From assembly GCF_000319575.2 (NCBI RefSeq), contig NC_021291.1, positions 1,178,001 to 1,242,000 on the forward strand: a stretch of DNA of 64,000 bases, read 5' to 3'. The notes below the pieces were generated by a model that worked only from the letters and a program-made list of their open reading frames with translations, was not told the origin of the DNA and did not search any database. The translations under genes were made by a program, and so were the position numbers. Shown here piece by piece: positions 47,755-53,265 of this stretch (its first letter is position 1; the number at the start of each line of letters is the position of its first letter). The stretch is from Spiribacter salinus M19-40 (GTDB lineage Bacteria; Pseudomonadota; Gammaproteobacteria; Nitrococcales; Nitrococcaceae).

Positions 47755-49584
47755 ATGCCCCCATCAGACAACGGCCAGACCCCACGCGCCATTCTCGAGC
47801 GGATCTTCGGCTACCGCAGTTTTCGTGGTCAGCAAGCTGCGGTTGTCGATTGGGTCAGTGAAGGCGGCAATGCCCTGGTGCTCATGCCCACCGGTGGGGG
47901 CAAGTCGTTGTGCTACCAAATCCCCGCCCTCGTCCGAACGGGGCTCGCGGTCGTGATCTCGCCGCTGATTGCACTCATGCATGACCAGGTCACCGCACTG
48001 AGACAGCAGGGCGTGCGGGCCGCCGCGCTCAATTCCAGTCTGGATCCGGTGGAGCGCATCGAGGTTGAACAGGCGATTGAAGCCGGCACCCTTGATCTGC
48101 TTTATGTCGCTCCCGAACGGCTGCTGTCCGGCGATCTGCTTAACCGGCTCTCGCGCCGACCTGTCGCACTGTTTGCCATCGACGAGGCGCACTGCGTGTC
48201 GCAATGGGGACATGATTTCCGACCCGAATATCTCCAGCTGGGCATTCTTGGGGAGCGCTTCCCCGCGGTTCCCCGGGTCGCGCTGACCGCGACCGCCGAT
48301 ACCCGCACCCGCGAGGAGATTCATCGCCAGCTGCTTCCCGCCGATGCCCGCGTCTTCGTCTCAAGCTTCGATCGCCCCAACATTCGCTATCACGTCGGCG
48401 TCAAAGAAAAACCCCGAGAGCAATTACTGCGCTTCATCCGCGAGCGTCATGCCGGAGAATCCGGCATTGTCTACTGCATGTCCCGCCGGGCGACCGAGCA
48501 GATTGCCGACTGGCTGAACGCGCGGGATATCCCCGCGCTTGCCTATCACGCCGGGATCGACCCTGCGCAGCGCCAAGCACACCAGGGCCGATTCCTTCGC
48601 GAGGATGGCCTTGTCATGGTCGCCACCGTCGCCTTTGGCATGGGTATCGACAAGCCGGATGTGCGTTTTGTCGCGCATCTGGATCTACCCAAGACCCTTG
48701 AGGCCTATTACCAGGAGACCGGGCGCGCTGGCCGCGATGGCCTGCCGGCGGAGGCCTGGCTGATTTACGGCCTGCAGGACATTTACCGGCTTCGACAGAT
48801 GAGCGCCGAGTCGACCGCAGGCGATGATCACAAACGCCGGGAACATCAGCGCCTTGAAGCCCTGCTGGGTTTTTGTGAGACGACCGGTTGCCGGCGGCCG
48901 GCATTACTTGGCCATTTCAGTGAGACGCACGCCGGTGAATGCGGCAACTGCGACAACTGCCTTACCCCGCCCGCTACCTGGGACGCCACGGATGCGGCTC
49001 GCCGAGTACTGTCCTGCGTCTACCGCACGGGCCAGCGCTTTGGGGCCAAACATGTCATTGACGTCCTGCGGGGCGCTGATGATGAGCGGATTCGGCGACT
49101 GGGCCACGATCAGTTAACCACCTGGGGCATTGGCCAGGATCTGGCCGCAGGACTATGGCAGTCCGTTATCCGCCAGCTTCTGGCCCACGGCCTGCTCGCC
49201 CCCGATCCGAACGGGCACGGGGGACTGCAGCTCACCGATGCCTGTCGCCCGGTTCTGCGGGGAGAGACACGAATCGAGCTGCGTGAGGATGCGCTGCCAA
49301 CCCGCCAGCGCCCATCCCACCAACGCATCGAGGCAGCCGACGTGGCGGCCGACCCGGACACTTGGGCCACCCTGCGGGCCGAGCGGCGCCGGCTTGCTGA
49401 AGCAGAAGGCGTGCCGCCTTACATTATCTTTCACGACGCCACCCTGCTGGCCATGCTCGAGCAGCAGCCGCGTAATCTGGCCGAGATGGCCGATGTGCCC
49501 GGGGTCGGCGCACACAAGCTCAGCCGCTATGGTGAGGCGTTCCTAGCCGCGCTCGCGGCTTCCCCGAGCACTTCAGGCGCCTGA
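47755..49584 (+). CDS. recQ: ATP-dependent DNA helicase RecQ
   Basis: A 609-residue 3'-5' helicase of the RecF pathway. Seen: motif 0 [10 protein letters not shown], Walker [22 protein letters not shown] box [19 protein letters not shown], motif [15 protein letters not shown], zinc cysteines in [24 protein letters not shown], a winged helix, and a C-terminal HRDC domain ([18 protein letters not shown]). Normal length. It directly follows dnaE2; I see no own SOS box. Its last 58 bp overlap leuA. Confidence 0.96.
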
Positions 49585-51227
49585 ACGGCCATGCGGTTCA
49601 GGCCGCTCAGCACCGCCCGAATGGACGCCGTGACGATGTTGGCATCCAGGCCAACGCCATAGACATCACCCTCAATGGGCGCCGCGGCCAGCTCCATAAA
49701 ACAAATCGCGCCGGCATCCGACCCATGACTCAGTGAGTGCTCCTCGTAATGCTGCACTTTGACCGGGCTGCCCAGGGCATCCAGCAAGGCGTCAATCGGG
49801 CCGTTCCCGAATCCGGTCAGCACCTGCTCTTCGCCCCCGCGGTCCAGGCGCAAACGAATGCCCTGGCGGTCATTGGCATCAAACAGTGCATGCCCGAGAT
49901 AATGCAAAGGAGAATCAAGGGTCAGATACTCCCGCTCGAAAATGGCCCAAAGCTGGTCTGCAGCGACGGTCCCGCCCGACGCGTCGGTGTGTGCCTGAAC
50001 GACCTGCGAGAACTCCACCTGGAGGCGCCGGGGCAGGCTGACGCCGTACTCACGCTCAAGGAGATAGGCGATCCCGCCTTTGCCTGACTGGCTATTAACC
50101 CGAATGACCGACTCGTAGCTGCGGCCGATATCCCGCGGATCAATGGTGAGATAGGGCACTTGCCAGACCCCGTCCTCGGGCTGGACGGCAAATCCCTTGC
50201 GAATGGCGTCCTGGTGCGACCCTGAAAACGCGGTGAAGACCAGATCGCCCACATACGGATGCCGCGGGTGCACGGGCATCTCCGTGCACTGCTCAACGGT
50301 GCGCAAAACCTCGTTAATCCGCGAGAGATCCAGGCCCGGGGACACACCTTGCGTGTAGAGATTGAGCGCCAAGGTCACCAGATCCACATTGCCGGTGCGC
50401 TCACCGTTACCGAACAGGCAACCCTCCACCCGATCCGCACCAGCCATCAGCGCCAGCTCGGTCGCGGCCACGCCCGTCCCACGATCGTTGTGCGGATGCA
50501 CACTGAGCACGATGCCCTCACGCCGAGCCAGATGCCGATGCATCCACTCGATTTGATCGGCGTAGACATTGGGCGTGGACATCTCAACCGTGGCCGGCAA
50601 GTTGATGATAACCGGGCGTTCGGGCGCAGCCTGCCAAACCGCCGTGACCGCATCGACCACCTCAAGGGCGAACTCGGGCTCCGTGGCACTGAAGGTCTCC
50701 GGGCTGTACTGAAAACGCCAGTCGGTCTGCGGATTCTCATCGGCCAGGGCCTGGATATGGCCCGCAGCCTCGACGGCCATGGTGCGAACGCCCTCTGCCG
50801 CCTGCCGAAAGACGACGTCGCGAAATACCGGTGAGGTCGCATTGTAGACATGCACAATGACCCGTGGAGCGCCCGCGACGGACTCGAACGTCCGGGCAAT
50901 CAGATCGGGCCGTGCCTGCGTCAGCACCTCAATCCACACGCCCTCCGGAATCGCGTCGGTATCAATCAAATGTCGGACAAAGTCGTGATCAGCCTGTGAG
51001 GCGGAGGGGAAACCCACCTCAATCTCCTGAAATCCGATCTCGATCAGGCAGTCATACAAGGCCCGCTTGCGCGGCACATCCATCGGCTCGAACAAAGCCT
51101 GATTACCGTCACGCAGATCGGTACTCATCCAGATCGGCGGCCGTGTGAGGGTGCGATCAGGCCATTGCCGGTCGCTCAGCCGCACGGGCCGGTAGGGCTG
51201 ATATTTCTGGCTAGGATCCTTGAGCAT
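49527..51227 (-). CDS. leuA: 2-isopropylmalate synthase (long LeuA type)
   Basis: A 566-residue enzyme condensing 2-oxoisovalerate and acetyl-CoA, the first step of leucine synthesis. Catalytic metal and substrate blocks: [58 protein letters not shown]-terminal LeuA dimer/regulatory domain binds leucine ([19 protein letters not shown]). The N-terminus ([19 protein letters not shown]) is that of the long Corynebacterium-like subtype. A leucine-rich leader ORF lies upstream. Confidence 0.95.
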
Positions 51228-51262
51228 GCTGGCGCGCTCCCTGTGATTAAACGAGTCTGCTG

Positions 51263-51275
51263 CCGCCGGTGGCGG
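51263..51275 (-). promoter_or_regulatory. Hairpin between the leu leader and leuA
   Basis: CCGCC-ACC-GGCGG (minus strand) forms a 5-bp stem 36 bp before leuA. The T-rich stretch after it (GTTTAAT) is short and not immediate, so an attenuator role is only possible. Bases GGCGGCAGCAG could also pair with the CTG-repeat part of the leader. Confidence 0.3.
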
Positions 51276-51309
51276 TCATTGGGAAAAGCAACGATTGGAG
51301 GGGGATTAT

Positions 51310-51396
51310 TTAACTGCGCGCGCGGCGCAGCAGCAGGCCAGCCAGAAGGCCCAGGGAGCGGAGCAGTCGTGCAAGATTGTTGATTGTCATCGACAT
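51310..51396 (-). CDS. leuL: Leucine-rich leader peptide of leuA
   Basis: A 28-residue reading frame just before leuA, too short for usual cutoffs. It begins MSMTINNLARLLRSLGLLAG and then has three consecutive CTG codons, so 9 of 28 residues are leucine. It ends 82 bp before leuA. A GC hairpin (51314-51330) overlaps the last codons just after the CTG run. Composition and place match attenuator leaders such as LeuL. The -10 of its promoter is six bases before its ATG. Confidence 0.75.
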   Translation of the reverse strand: MSMTINNLARLLRSLGLLAGLLLRRARS

Positions 51397-51402
51397 AGCC
51401 CG

Positions 51403-51432
51403 AGTAAACCGTTAACGGCATCGGGAAGTCAA
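51403..51432 (-). promoter_or_regulatory. leuL-leuA promoter
   Basis: On the minus strand TTGACT (51432-51427), an 18-bp spacer and TTTACT (51408-51403) precede the leader-peptide ATG at 51396 by six bases. This is the best -35 in the set of start-proximal promoters here. Confidence 0.6.
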
Positions 51433-51453: not shown

Positions 51454-53265
51454 ATGTCAACATCCCCGCATTCATGGCGGCAATACCTTGGGGTTTTCCG
51501 CTATAGCCGTCGAGCCATTGAGCTCGTCTGGCAAACGAGCCGCGCACTCACGTTCATACTGGCCATCGCAACGCTCGTGGCCGGCCTGCTCCCTGCCGCT
51601 GCCGCGTGGGTCGGTCAGCTCATCGTCGATGGTGTCGTGGCCGCGATCGAGGCCGATGCCGGCATCCCCGAGCGGCTGTTGTGGCTCGTCGCCCTGGAGG
51701 GGGGAATCATCGCGGGCATCGCCGGTGGCCAGCGCGCGATCCAGACCGTGCAGTCCCTGTTGCGCGCGCAGCTCGGCCAGCGCGTTAACGTCATGATTCT
51801 TGAAAAAGCGCAGACGCTGCAGCTTGCAGACTTCGAAGACTCGGAGTTCTACGACAAGCTCACACGCGCCCGTCGCGAGGCCTCAAGCCGCCCTCTCAGC
51901 CTCGTTAACCGAACTTTCGGTCTCATCCAGAATGGCCTGTCACTTGCCAGCTTTGCCGGCCTCCTGTTTGCGTTTTCGCCCTGGGCGGTCGCCATCCTCG
52001 TGCTCGCCGGGCTCCCGCAATTCTTCTCCGAGGCCAAGTTCTCCGGCGATGCCTTTCGGCTCTTTCGCTGGCGCAGTCCTGACACCCGTCAGCAGATGTA
52101 CCTCGAGACAGTCCTTGCTCGAGAGGACAGCGCCAAGGAGGTCAAGCTCTTTCAACTCGGTCCGCTGCTGCTGCAGCGCTATCGCGACATCTTCGAACGA
52201 CTCTATCGCGAGGACCGAAGCCTGACACTGCGCCGAGATTTGTGGGGCTTTGGCCTGGGGTTGATTGCGACGCTGGCGTTTTACGCCACCTATGCGTGGA
52301 TTGTGATGAGCACCGTGGCCGGTGCGATCACGCTCGGGCAGATGACGATGTATCTGGCCGTATTCCGCCAGGGCCAGAGCGCTGTCAGCGCCAGTCTCAC
52401 GGCCATTAGCGGCATGTACGAGGACAACCTCTACCTGTCCAACCTGTATGAATACCTGGAACAGCCGGTGAGCACCGGAACCGGGGAGGCCACCACCGGT
52501 GCCATCCCTAATGATGGCCTACGCTTTGAGGGCGTTAGCTTTCGCTATCCTGGCAGTGAGCAATTCGCGCTCGAGTCGATCGACCTTCACCTGGCCCCGG
52601 GCCAGACCCTCGCCCTTGTCGGCGCAAATGGCTCAGGTAAAACCACGCTGATCAAGCTACTGGCAGGTCTCTACACCCCTTCCGCAGGGTGTATCCGACT
52701 GGATGGCACGGATCTTCGCGATTGGGATAGCACCACGCTGCGCCAGCGGATCGGAATCATTTTCCAGGACTTCATGCGCTACCAGCTCCCCGTTGGCGAG
52801 AACATCGGTGCCGGCGACGTCACCCACTTTCAGGACGAAGCGCGCTGGCAACAGGCCGCCCGCCAGGGTCTGGCTGATGCCTTCATTGAAGAGATCCCGG
52901 GTGGCTACCACGCCCAGCTGGGACGCTGGTTCAAGGATGGCCGCGAACTGTCCGGCGGACAGTGGCAAAAAATCGCTGTGGCGCGGGCGTTCATGCGTGA
53001 GGAGGCCGACGTGCTTGTACTCGACGAGCCGACAGCTGCCATGGACGCGGCGGCAGAGGCGGAGATCTTCGCCCATTTCCGCGAGCTGACCCGAGACCGC
53101 ATGGCCATCCTGATCTCCCACCGTTTCTCGACCGTGCGCATGGCCGATGAAATCGCCGTCATCGATGGCGGGCGCATTATTGAGCGGGGCAGTCATGACA
53201 GCCTGCTAGCCCGAGAGGGCCAGTATGCCCATCTGTTCCAACTACAGGCGGCGGGCTACCAGTGA
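51454..53265 (+). CDS. ABC exporter, fused permease and ATPase
   Basis: A 603-residue half-transporter with about six N-terminal membrane helices (to residue ~330) and an ATPase domain: Walker A VGANGSGKTTLIKLLAGLY near 390, Q-loop IIFQDFMRYQLPVGENIGAGD, signature LSGGQWQKIAVARAFM near 499, Walker B VLVLDEPTAAMD and H-loop ILISHRFSTVRMAD. The membrane part (QTLQLADFEDSEFYDKLTRA) resembles ABCB-like exporters seen in peptide/antibiotic export, but no substrate can be named. The stop overlaps the tmcA start (GTGA). Confidence 0.88.
   Translation: MSTSPHSWRQYLGVFRYSRRAIELVWQTSRALTFILAIATLVAGLLPAAAAWVGQLIVDGVVAAIEADAGIPERLLWLVALEGGIIAGIAGGQRAIQTVQSLLRAQLGQRVNVMILEKAQTLQLADFEDSEFYDKLTRARREASSRPLSLVNRTFGLIQNGLSLASFAGLLFAFSPWAVAILVLAGLPQFFSEAKFSGDAFRLFRWRSPDTRQQMYLETVLAREDSAKEVKLFQLGPLLLQRYRDIFERLYREDRSLTLRRDLWGFGLGLIATLAFYATYAWIVMSTVAGAITLGQMTMYLAVFRQGQSAVSASLTAISGMYEDNLYLSNLYEYLEQPVSTGTGEATTGAIPNDGLRFEGVSFRYPGSEQFALESIDLHLAPGQTLALVGANGSGKTTLIKLLAGLYTPSAGCIRLDGTDLRDWDSTTLRQRIGIIFQDFMRYQLPVGENIGAGDVTHFQDEARWQQAARQGLADAFIEEIPGGYHAQLGRWFKDGRELSGGQWQKIAVARAFMREEADVLVLDEPTAAMDAAAEAEIFAHFRELTRDRMAILISHRFSTVRMADEIAVIDGGRIIERGSHDSLLAREGQYAHLFQLQAAGYQ

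Follow-up and report, generated by a model that had tools for sequence, protein, structure and literature searches.

The leuA gene of Spiribacter salinus M19-40, whose genome measures 1.74 Mb, is preceded by a short leucine-rich open reading frame, and this raises the question of whether the frame senses leucine on behalf of leuA and, if so, how the ribosome enters it and on what output it acts. In Escherichia coli, leuL is led by a Shine-Dalgarno sequence, relies on rare CUA codons and has an intrinsic terminator at its end. The Spiribacter leader resembles leuL in its short ORF, its run of Leu codons and its hairpins before leuA, whereas it differs in being apparently leaderless, in using CTG codons and in lacking a U-tract. 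Leaderless mRNAs are usually regarded as uncommon in Proteobacteria. The locus was analysed within a 64,000-nt stretch of genomic DNA, hereafter the window, and was compared with its counterparts in other genomes.

Results and Discussion

The leader lies on the minus strand, 82 nt separating its stop codon from leuA, and encodes MSMTINNLARLLRSLGLLAGLLLRRARS (Table 1). The original prediction, of a 28-codon frame upstream of leuA with nine Leu codons and a CTG triplet, was confirmed in the sequence, and the two hairpins that it had placed over the last codons (H1, 51334-51313) and before leuA (H2, 51275-51263) are both present. On the plus strand, a divergent ABC transporter permease/ATPase gene (51454-53265) begins 57 bp away from the ATG of the leader, which leaves the two promoters a very short common region.

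Table 1. Elements of the leuA leader region, with positions in the window
Feature	Position	Strand	Basis
-35 hexamer TTGACT	51427..51432	-	sequence; 18 nt upstream of -10
-10 hexamer TTTACT	51403..51408	-	sequence; 6 nt to leader ATG
Leucine-rich leader ORF, 28 codons, 9 Leu, probably leaderless	51310..51396	-	sequence and comparison
Putative transcript start	at or adjoining 51396	-	sequence
CTG CTG CTG, proposed sensor codons	51328..51336	-	LLL/LL before R-x-A-R in most relatives
Hairpin H1, last Leu codons to just 5' of stop	51313..51334	-	predicted fold and swap test
G-free C-rich stretch, 17 nt, directly 3' of stop; proposed Rho-loading (rut-like) site	51293..51309	-	composition and fold
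Hairpin H2, CCGCC-ACC-GGCGG	51263..51275	-	sequence; pairing of arms better within species than across them
leuA Shine-Dalgarno AGGGAG	51237..51242	-	sequence
leuA, 2-isopropylmalate synthase, 566 aa, long TIGR00970/PRK03739 kind	49527..51227	-	

The first relatives were chosen by LeuA protein similarity, without use of the motif. All 11 family genomes with a close long-type leuA (L002-L012) possess a short ORF ending in L-R-x-A-R/H-S, located 80-241 nt before leuA. Eight of these ORFs have a clear Leu run, and in L008, L009 and L011 the run is looser. No comparable ORF was seen in the loci from other families of the order in which LeuA is 57-60% identical (L013-L031). A search of GTDB genomes with the degenerate 24-mer CTGCTGCGCCNNGCGCGCAGYTRA returned 23 loci, all of them immediately before a leuA that was of either of two non-orthologous kinds; most belonged to Burkholderiales with a short, TIGR00973-like LeuA, and the others, including Arhodomonas aquaeolei, were long-type. 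A covariance model built from H1 and the C-rich stretch matched 63 of 300 Burkholderiales genomes (E up to 0.01), and leuA adjoined the match in 60 of the 76 loci fetched. The matches without a nearby leuA (L060-L063, L094-L097, L126, L164, L168, L177, L178 and L183-L185) were mostly weak and were judged to be due to chance.

Altogether 87 leaders, 68 of them non-redundant, were read, located 74-241 nt upstream of leuA in every case and preceding both non-orthologous kinds of the gene. Leucine makes up 27% of their residues, and LLL or LL stands before R-x-A-R in most. Conservation of the Leu run in relatives, which had been suggested as a check, was looked for in this way, and the ORF, its place and its apparent position at the transcript 5' end proved to be kept in Gamma- and Betaproteobacteria. 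A leader ORF with many codons for the pathway's end product is thus conserved before the biosynthetic gene, as expected of an amino acid attenuator that works by ribosome stalling, and the leader is very probably a Leu-codon attenuator of leuA, as judged from sequence comparison.

Several observations concern the limits of this distribution. The leader was not seen at one Neisseria leuA and one plasmid-borne Caballeronia leuA. S. salinus itself has a second leuA of the non-orthologous short kind (L186; G000:C1:523880-525364), downstream of a gene for a putative pssA-like membrane protein, and no promoter-spaced Leu-run ORF was seen upstream of it; several other members of the genus possess the short-kind leuA only. 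Among the long-type leaders outside the genus (L007-L012, L033, L049, L057/L058 and L166), the distance to leuA is often 200-240 nt, and a second control element may be present in these gaps, which hold another small frame (SGRRAMxxWQPxG-like in L010) as well as a long GC-rich hairpin that has a Shine-Dalgarno sequence of its own. Many Burkholderiales leaders (L032-L053 and L127-L144) have a linear motif in common that separates the C-rich stretch from H2, some 15-30 nt past the leader stop; it reads CAATTCG, with AGTACC-like bases following.

Concerning initiation, a strict sigma-70 scan of the window did not report the promoter at 51403-51432. Nevertheless, the "good promoter" of the original prediction is right on comparative grounds, because the position of the -10 hexamer is conserved in relatives; TTGACT/TTGACA-like hexamers also occur upstream of the leader in the family relatives. 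In this comparison the start codon was not picked by the promoter, and the best -10-like hexamer was sought in a 150-nt region. It was found 6-10 nt before an in-frame ATG in 73 of the 87 leaders, the mean -10 score by offset reaching its maximum at 6-7 nt before the ATG, and a Shine-Dalgarno sequence was absent within 20 nt of the leader start in 85. Two leaders (L044 and L050) have a GTG start at the same spot. Judged by promoter spacing and the missing Shine-Dalgarno sequence, the leader appears to have the two marks of a leaderless attenuator ORF, namely an ATG at the 5' end of the transcript and no Shine-Dalgarno sequence. It is very probable that the sensor ORF is leaderless, and the earlier suspicion of a leaderless sensor peptide is in this sense supported.

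The predicted fold is a weaker guide. The z-score of the whole leader is only -1.9, so the fold alone proves little, and dinucleotide-shuffle z-scores are weak for H1 alone (-0.5) and for the H2 region (-1.3). The comparison of sequences shows that conservation, rather than fold, sets the leader apart from chance. Arms of H1 pair weakly better within than between species (p 0.03), and those of H2 clearly better, none of 2000 permutations being as good.

Because 75 of the 87 leaders share the peptide end L-R-x-A-R(S), we considered whether this C-terminus is a nascent-peptide arrest motif acting by its amino acid sequence, as has been proposed for the RAPP end of Bordetella CruR (PMC9426467). 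However, conservation extends to the third codon positions, with CTG CGC nnn GCG CGC in 73-75 of the 75, which points to a constraint on the RNA; model-based sampling favours fixed codons, and the same codons are present in the motif-independent loci found by protein similarity. Moreover, divergent leaders end in LLLPSGS (L113) or LLLPCQGR (L072) with the stem rebuilt from other bases. Peptide arrest is thus highly improbable. What is kept therefore seems to be the RNA and not the end of the peptide, with H2 as the better-supported hairpin.

As for the output step, the arrangement of a Leu run within one hairpin and a second hairpin downstream recalls classical transcription attenuation by mutually exclusive antiterminator and intrinsic terminator, as in E. 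coli leuL and trpL. However, at least five T in the 8 nt 3' of H2 were found in only five of the 87 leaders, the U-tract being absent in the other 82, and no intrinsic terminator was found before leuA in the window. Since H2 has no U-tract, it is not an intrinsic terminator, and that reading was dropped. In addition, pairing between H1 arms and H2 arms did not exceed that of swapped controls. Classical attenuation is thus very unlikely; the ribosome-stalling attenuation first proposed is supported by the Leu-rich ORF kept before leuA, and its classical form with a competing intrinsic terminator is not supported.

The stretch directly past the stop codon is nearly free of G and rich in C. In the 15 nt past the stop, G accounts for 0-3% and C for 42-65% of the bases of the 87 leaders. 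A G-free 16-mer with at least seven C at the stop was found in 53 of the 87, versus 0.08% of background windows. For rut-like windows of 78 nt in which the C/G ratio is at least 1.5, the figures were 76% of leaders and 17% of the background. These wider counts are biased towards the C-rich stretch by the C-rich columns inside the covariance model; the 11 loci found by protein similarity are free of this bias, and only two G occur in their 165 nt past the stop (counted by eye). In the predicted folds, the C-rich stretch is 78% unpaired on average, and its pairing with the H2 and Shine-Dalgarno sequence of its own species is weaker than with those of other species, as if it were being kept single-stranded. 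Thus, C-rich, G-poor and unstructured RNA at the end of the uORF is combined with the lack of an intrinsic terminator, as in uORF-gated Rho attenuators. A G-free, C-rich and unpaired stretch with low pairing of its own and no U-tract points to Rho, and we give about an even chance to Rho being the output step of the attenuator.

Two further explanations bear on the pairing data. According to the first, the leader or C-rich stretch sequesters the leuA Shine-Dalgarno sequence, and a ribosome stalled on the Leu codons frees it, so that attenuation is translational, much as with the base stem proposed for the LEU element of Actinobacteria. The leader ORF in the window contains CGCTCCCTG, the complement of CAGGGAGCG at the leuA Shine-Dalgarno sequence, and the two are paired in the MFE fold; matches are similar in L006 and L171 and, by eye, in L005. 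On the other hand, among 58 non-redundant leaders the pairing with the species' own Shine-Dalgarno sequence was no better than swapped pairing, either for the ORF (p 0.82) or for the C-rich stretch (p 0.9998). As a general mechanism, sequestration, attractive in L002, L005, L006, L007 and L171, was rejected on this species-swap test; it may operate in single lineages such as Spiribacter, and we regard translational attenuation as unlikely overall.

The second is a competing-structure Rho attenuator of the mgtL type, in which the part of the ORF immediately preceding the Leu run would bind the 5' arm of H2, and the position of the ribosome would pick either H2 or the ORF:H2-arm helix, altering the access of Rho. 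Pairing with the own H2 5' arm beat swapped pairing (p 0.0024 overall; p 0.0028 in the 44 short-type leaders), and long matches are found in L050, L155 and L125. However, this signal is one of twelve tests, falls to p 0.021 after GC stratification and is absent (p 0.32) among the 24 leaders of the long type, to which that of the window belongs. This arrangement is likewise unlikely.

Based on this evidence, we propose a leucine-responsive leuA attenuator in which a leaderless Leu sensor ORF acts through Rho-dependent termination, a model that we consider to have roughly equal chances of being right or wrong. Transcription very probably starts at the leader ATG, so that the ribosome would initiate right at the end of the message with no Shine-Dalgarno sequence to guide it. 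When leucine is plentiful, the ribosome would cross the Leu codons and leave at the stop, H1 would refold and the C-rich stretch would be exposed; Rho would then load on it and halt transcription before or within early leuA. When leucine is scarce, the ribosome would stall on the CTG run with H1 melted, covering the C-rich end of the ORF and abutting the start of the C-rich stretch, so that Rho would be unable to load or to catch RNA polymerase and leuA would be transcribed. H2 would be a conserved non-terminator hairpin, perhaps serving for pausing or for protection of the 3' end. Some points count against this model. The sensor codons are mostly CTG, which is leuA's own commonest Leu codon and not a rare one. 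Occlusion of the C-rich stretch would be only partial, because a ribosome stalled at the Leu run reaches about the stop codon. The weak pairing between the leader and the 5' arm of H2 also tells against it, since a competing-structure step could operate instead.

Several known systems share parts of this anatomy; closest in type are the leucine leaders of Actinobacteria and the leaderless trpL of Sinorhizobium. The LEU element of Actinobacteria consists of a proposed base stem between the Leu run and the Shine-Dalgarno sequence and a pseudoknot before leuA (PMC1262725), and LeuL1 of Streptomyces lividans has been reported to be leaderless (PMC8079986). Our leader is like both in being a Leu-rich leader before leuA without an intrinsic terminator. 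In contrast to the LEU element, pairing of the Leu run with the Shine-Dalgarno sequence is unsupported as a general feature by the swap test on the 58 leaders, the 9-nt match in the window lies outside the CTG run, and the succession of H1, C-rich stretch and H2 differs. In Sinorhizobium meliloti, trpL is a leaderless attenuator ORF whose ATG is the 5' end of the transcript (PMC7298713); it is similar as an amino acid attenuator ORF with a 5'-end ATG in a proteobacterium, and it differs in its Trp codons and its mutually exclusive terminator and antiterminator structures.

Precedents for Rho gated by a uORF are Bordetella pertussis CruR (PMC9426467), tnaC and mgtL (PMC12218461, PMC5021804) and the S. 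meliloti DUF1127 uORF (PMC12218461). These share with our leader an unstructured stretch with more C than G at or after the uORF and the lack of an intrinsic terminator. In contrast, their signals are copper for CruR, tryptophan excess for tnaC, proline limitation for mgtL and tetracycline for the DUF1127 uORF, and they are not described as leaderless Leu-run sensors; Rho has been demonstrated for CruR, whereas for the leuA leader we infer it.

No Rfam family matched the leader, at gathering scores or at E up to 1, and no description of this leuA leader element was found in the literature searched; subscription surveys, such as that of proteobacterial attenuators in 2004, were outside our reach, so that priority is uncertain. 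The leader is apparently widespread and uncatalogued.

Conclusions

We tentatively propose, with confidence slightly short of even, that the leader represents a widespread, uncatalogued class of leucine attenuator shared by Gamma- and Betaproteobacteria and placed before two kinds of leuA, whose leaderless uORF would control the access of Rho to a C-rich stretch, free of G, beside the uORF's stop codon. The sequence model predicts that leuA is regulated in many Burkholderiales, for which Rfam lists no such regulation. The leader appears to be a natural test bed for leucine-gated Rho termination and for why an attenuator omits the Shine-Dalgarno sequence, its ATG apparently staying at the promoter start point across dozens of species, two large groups and two unrelated kinds of leuA. 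If true, this placement before two non-orthologous kinds of leuA would imply that selection has long favoured leaderless initiation in a sensor that works through the ribosome.
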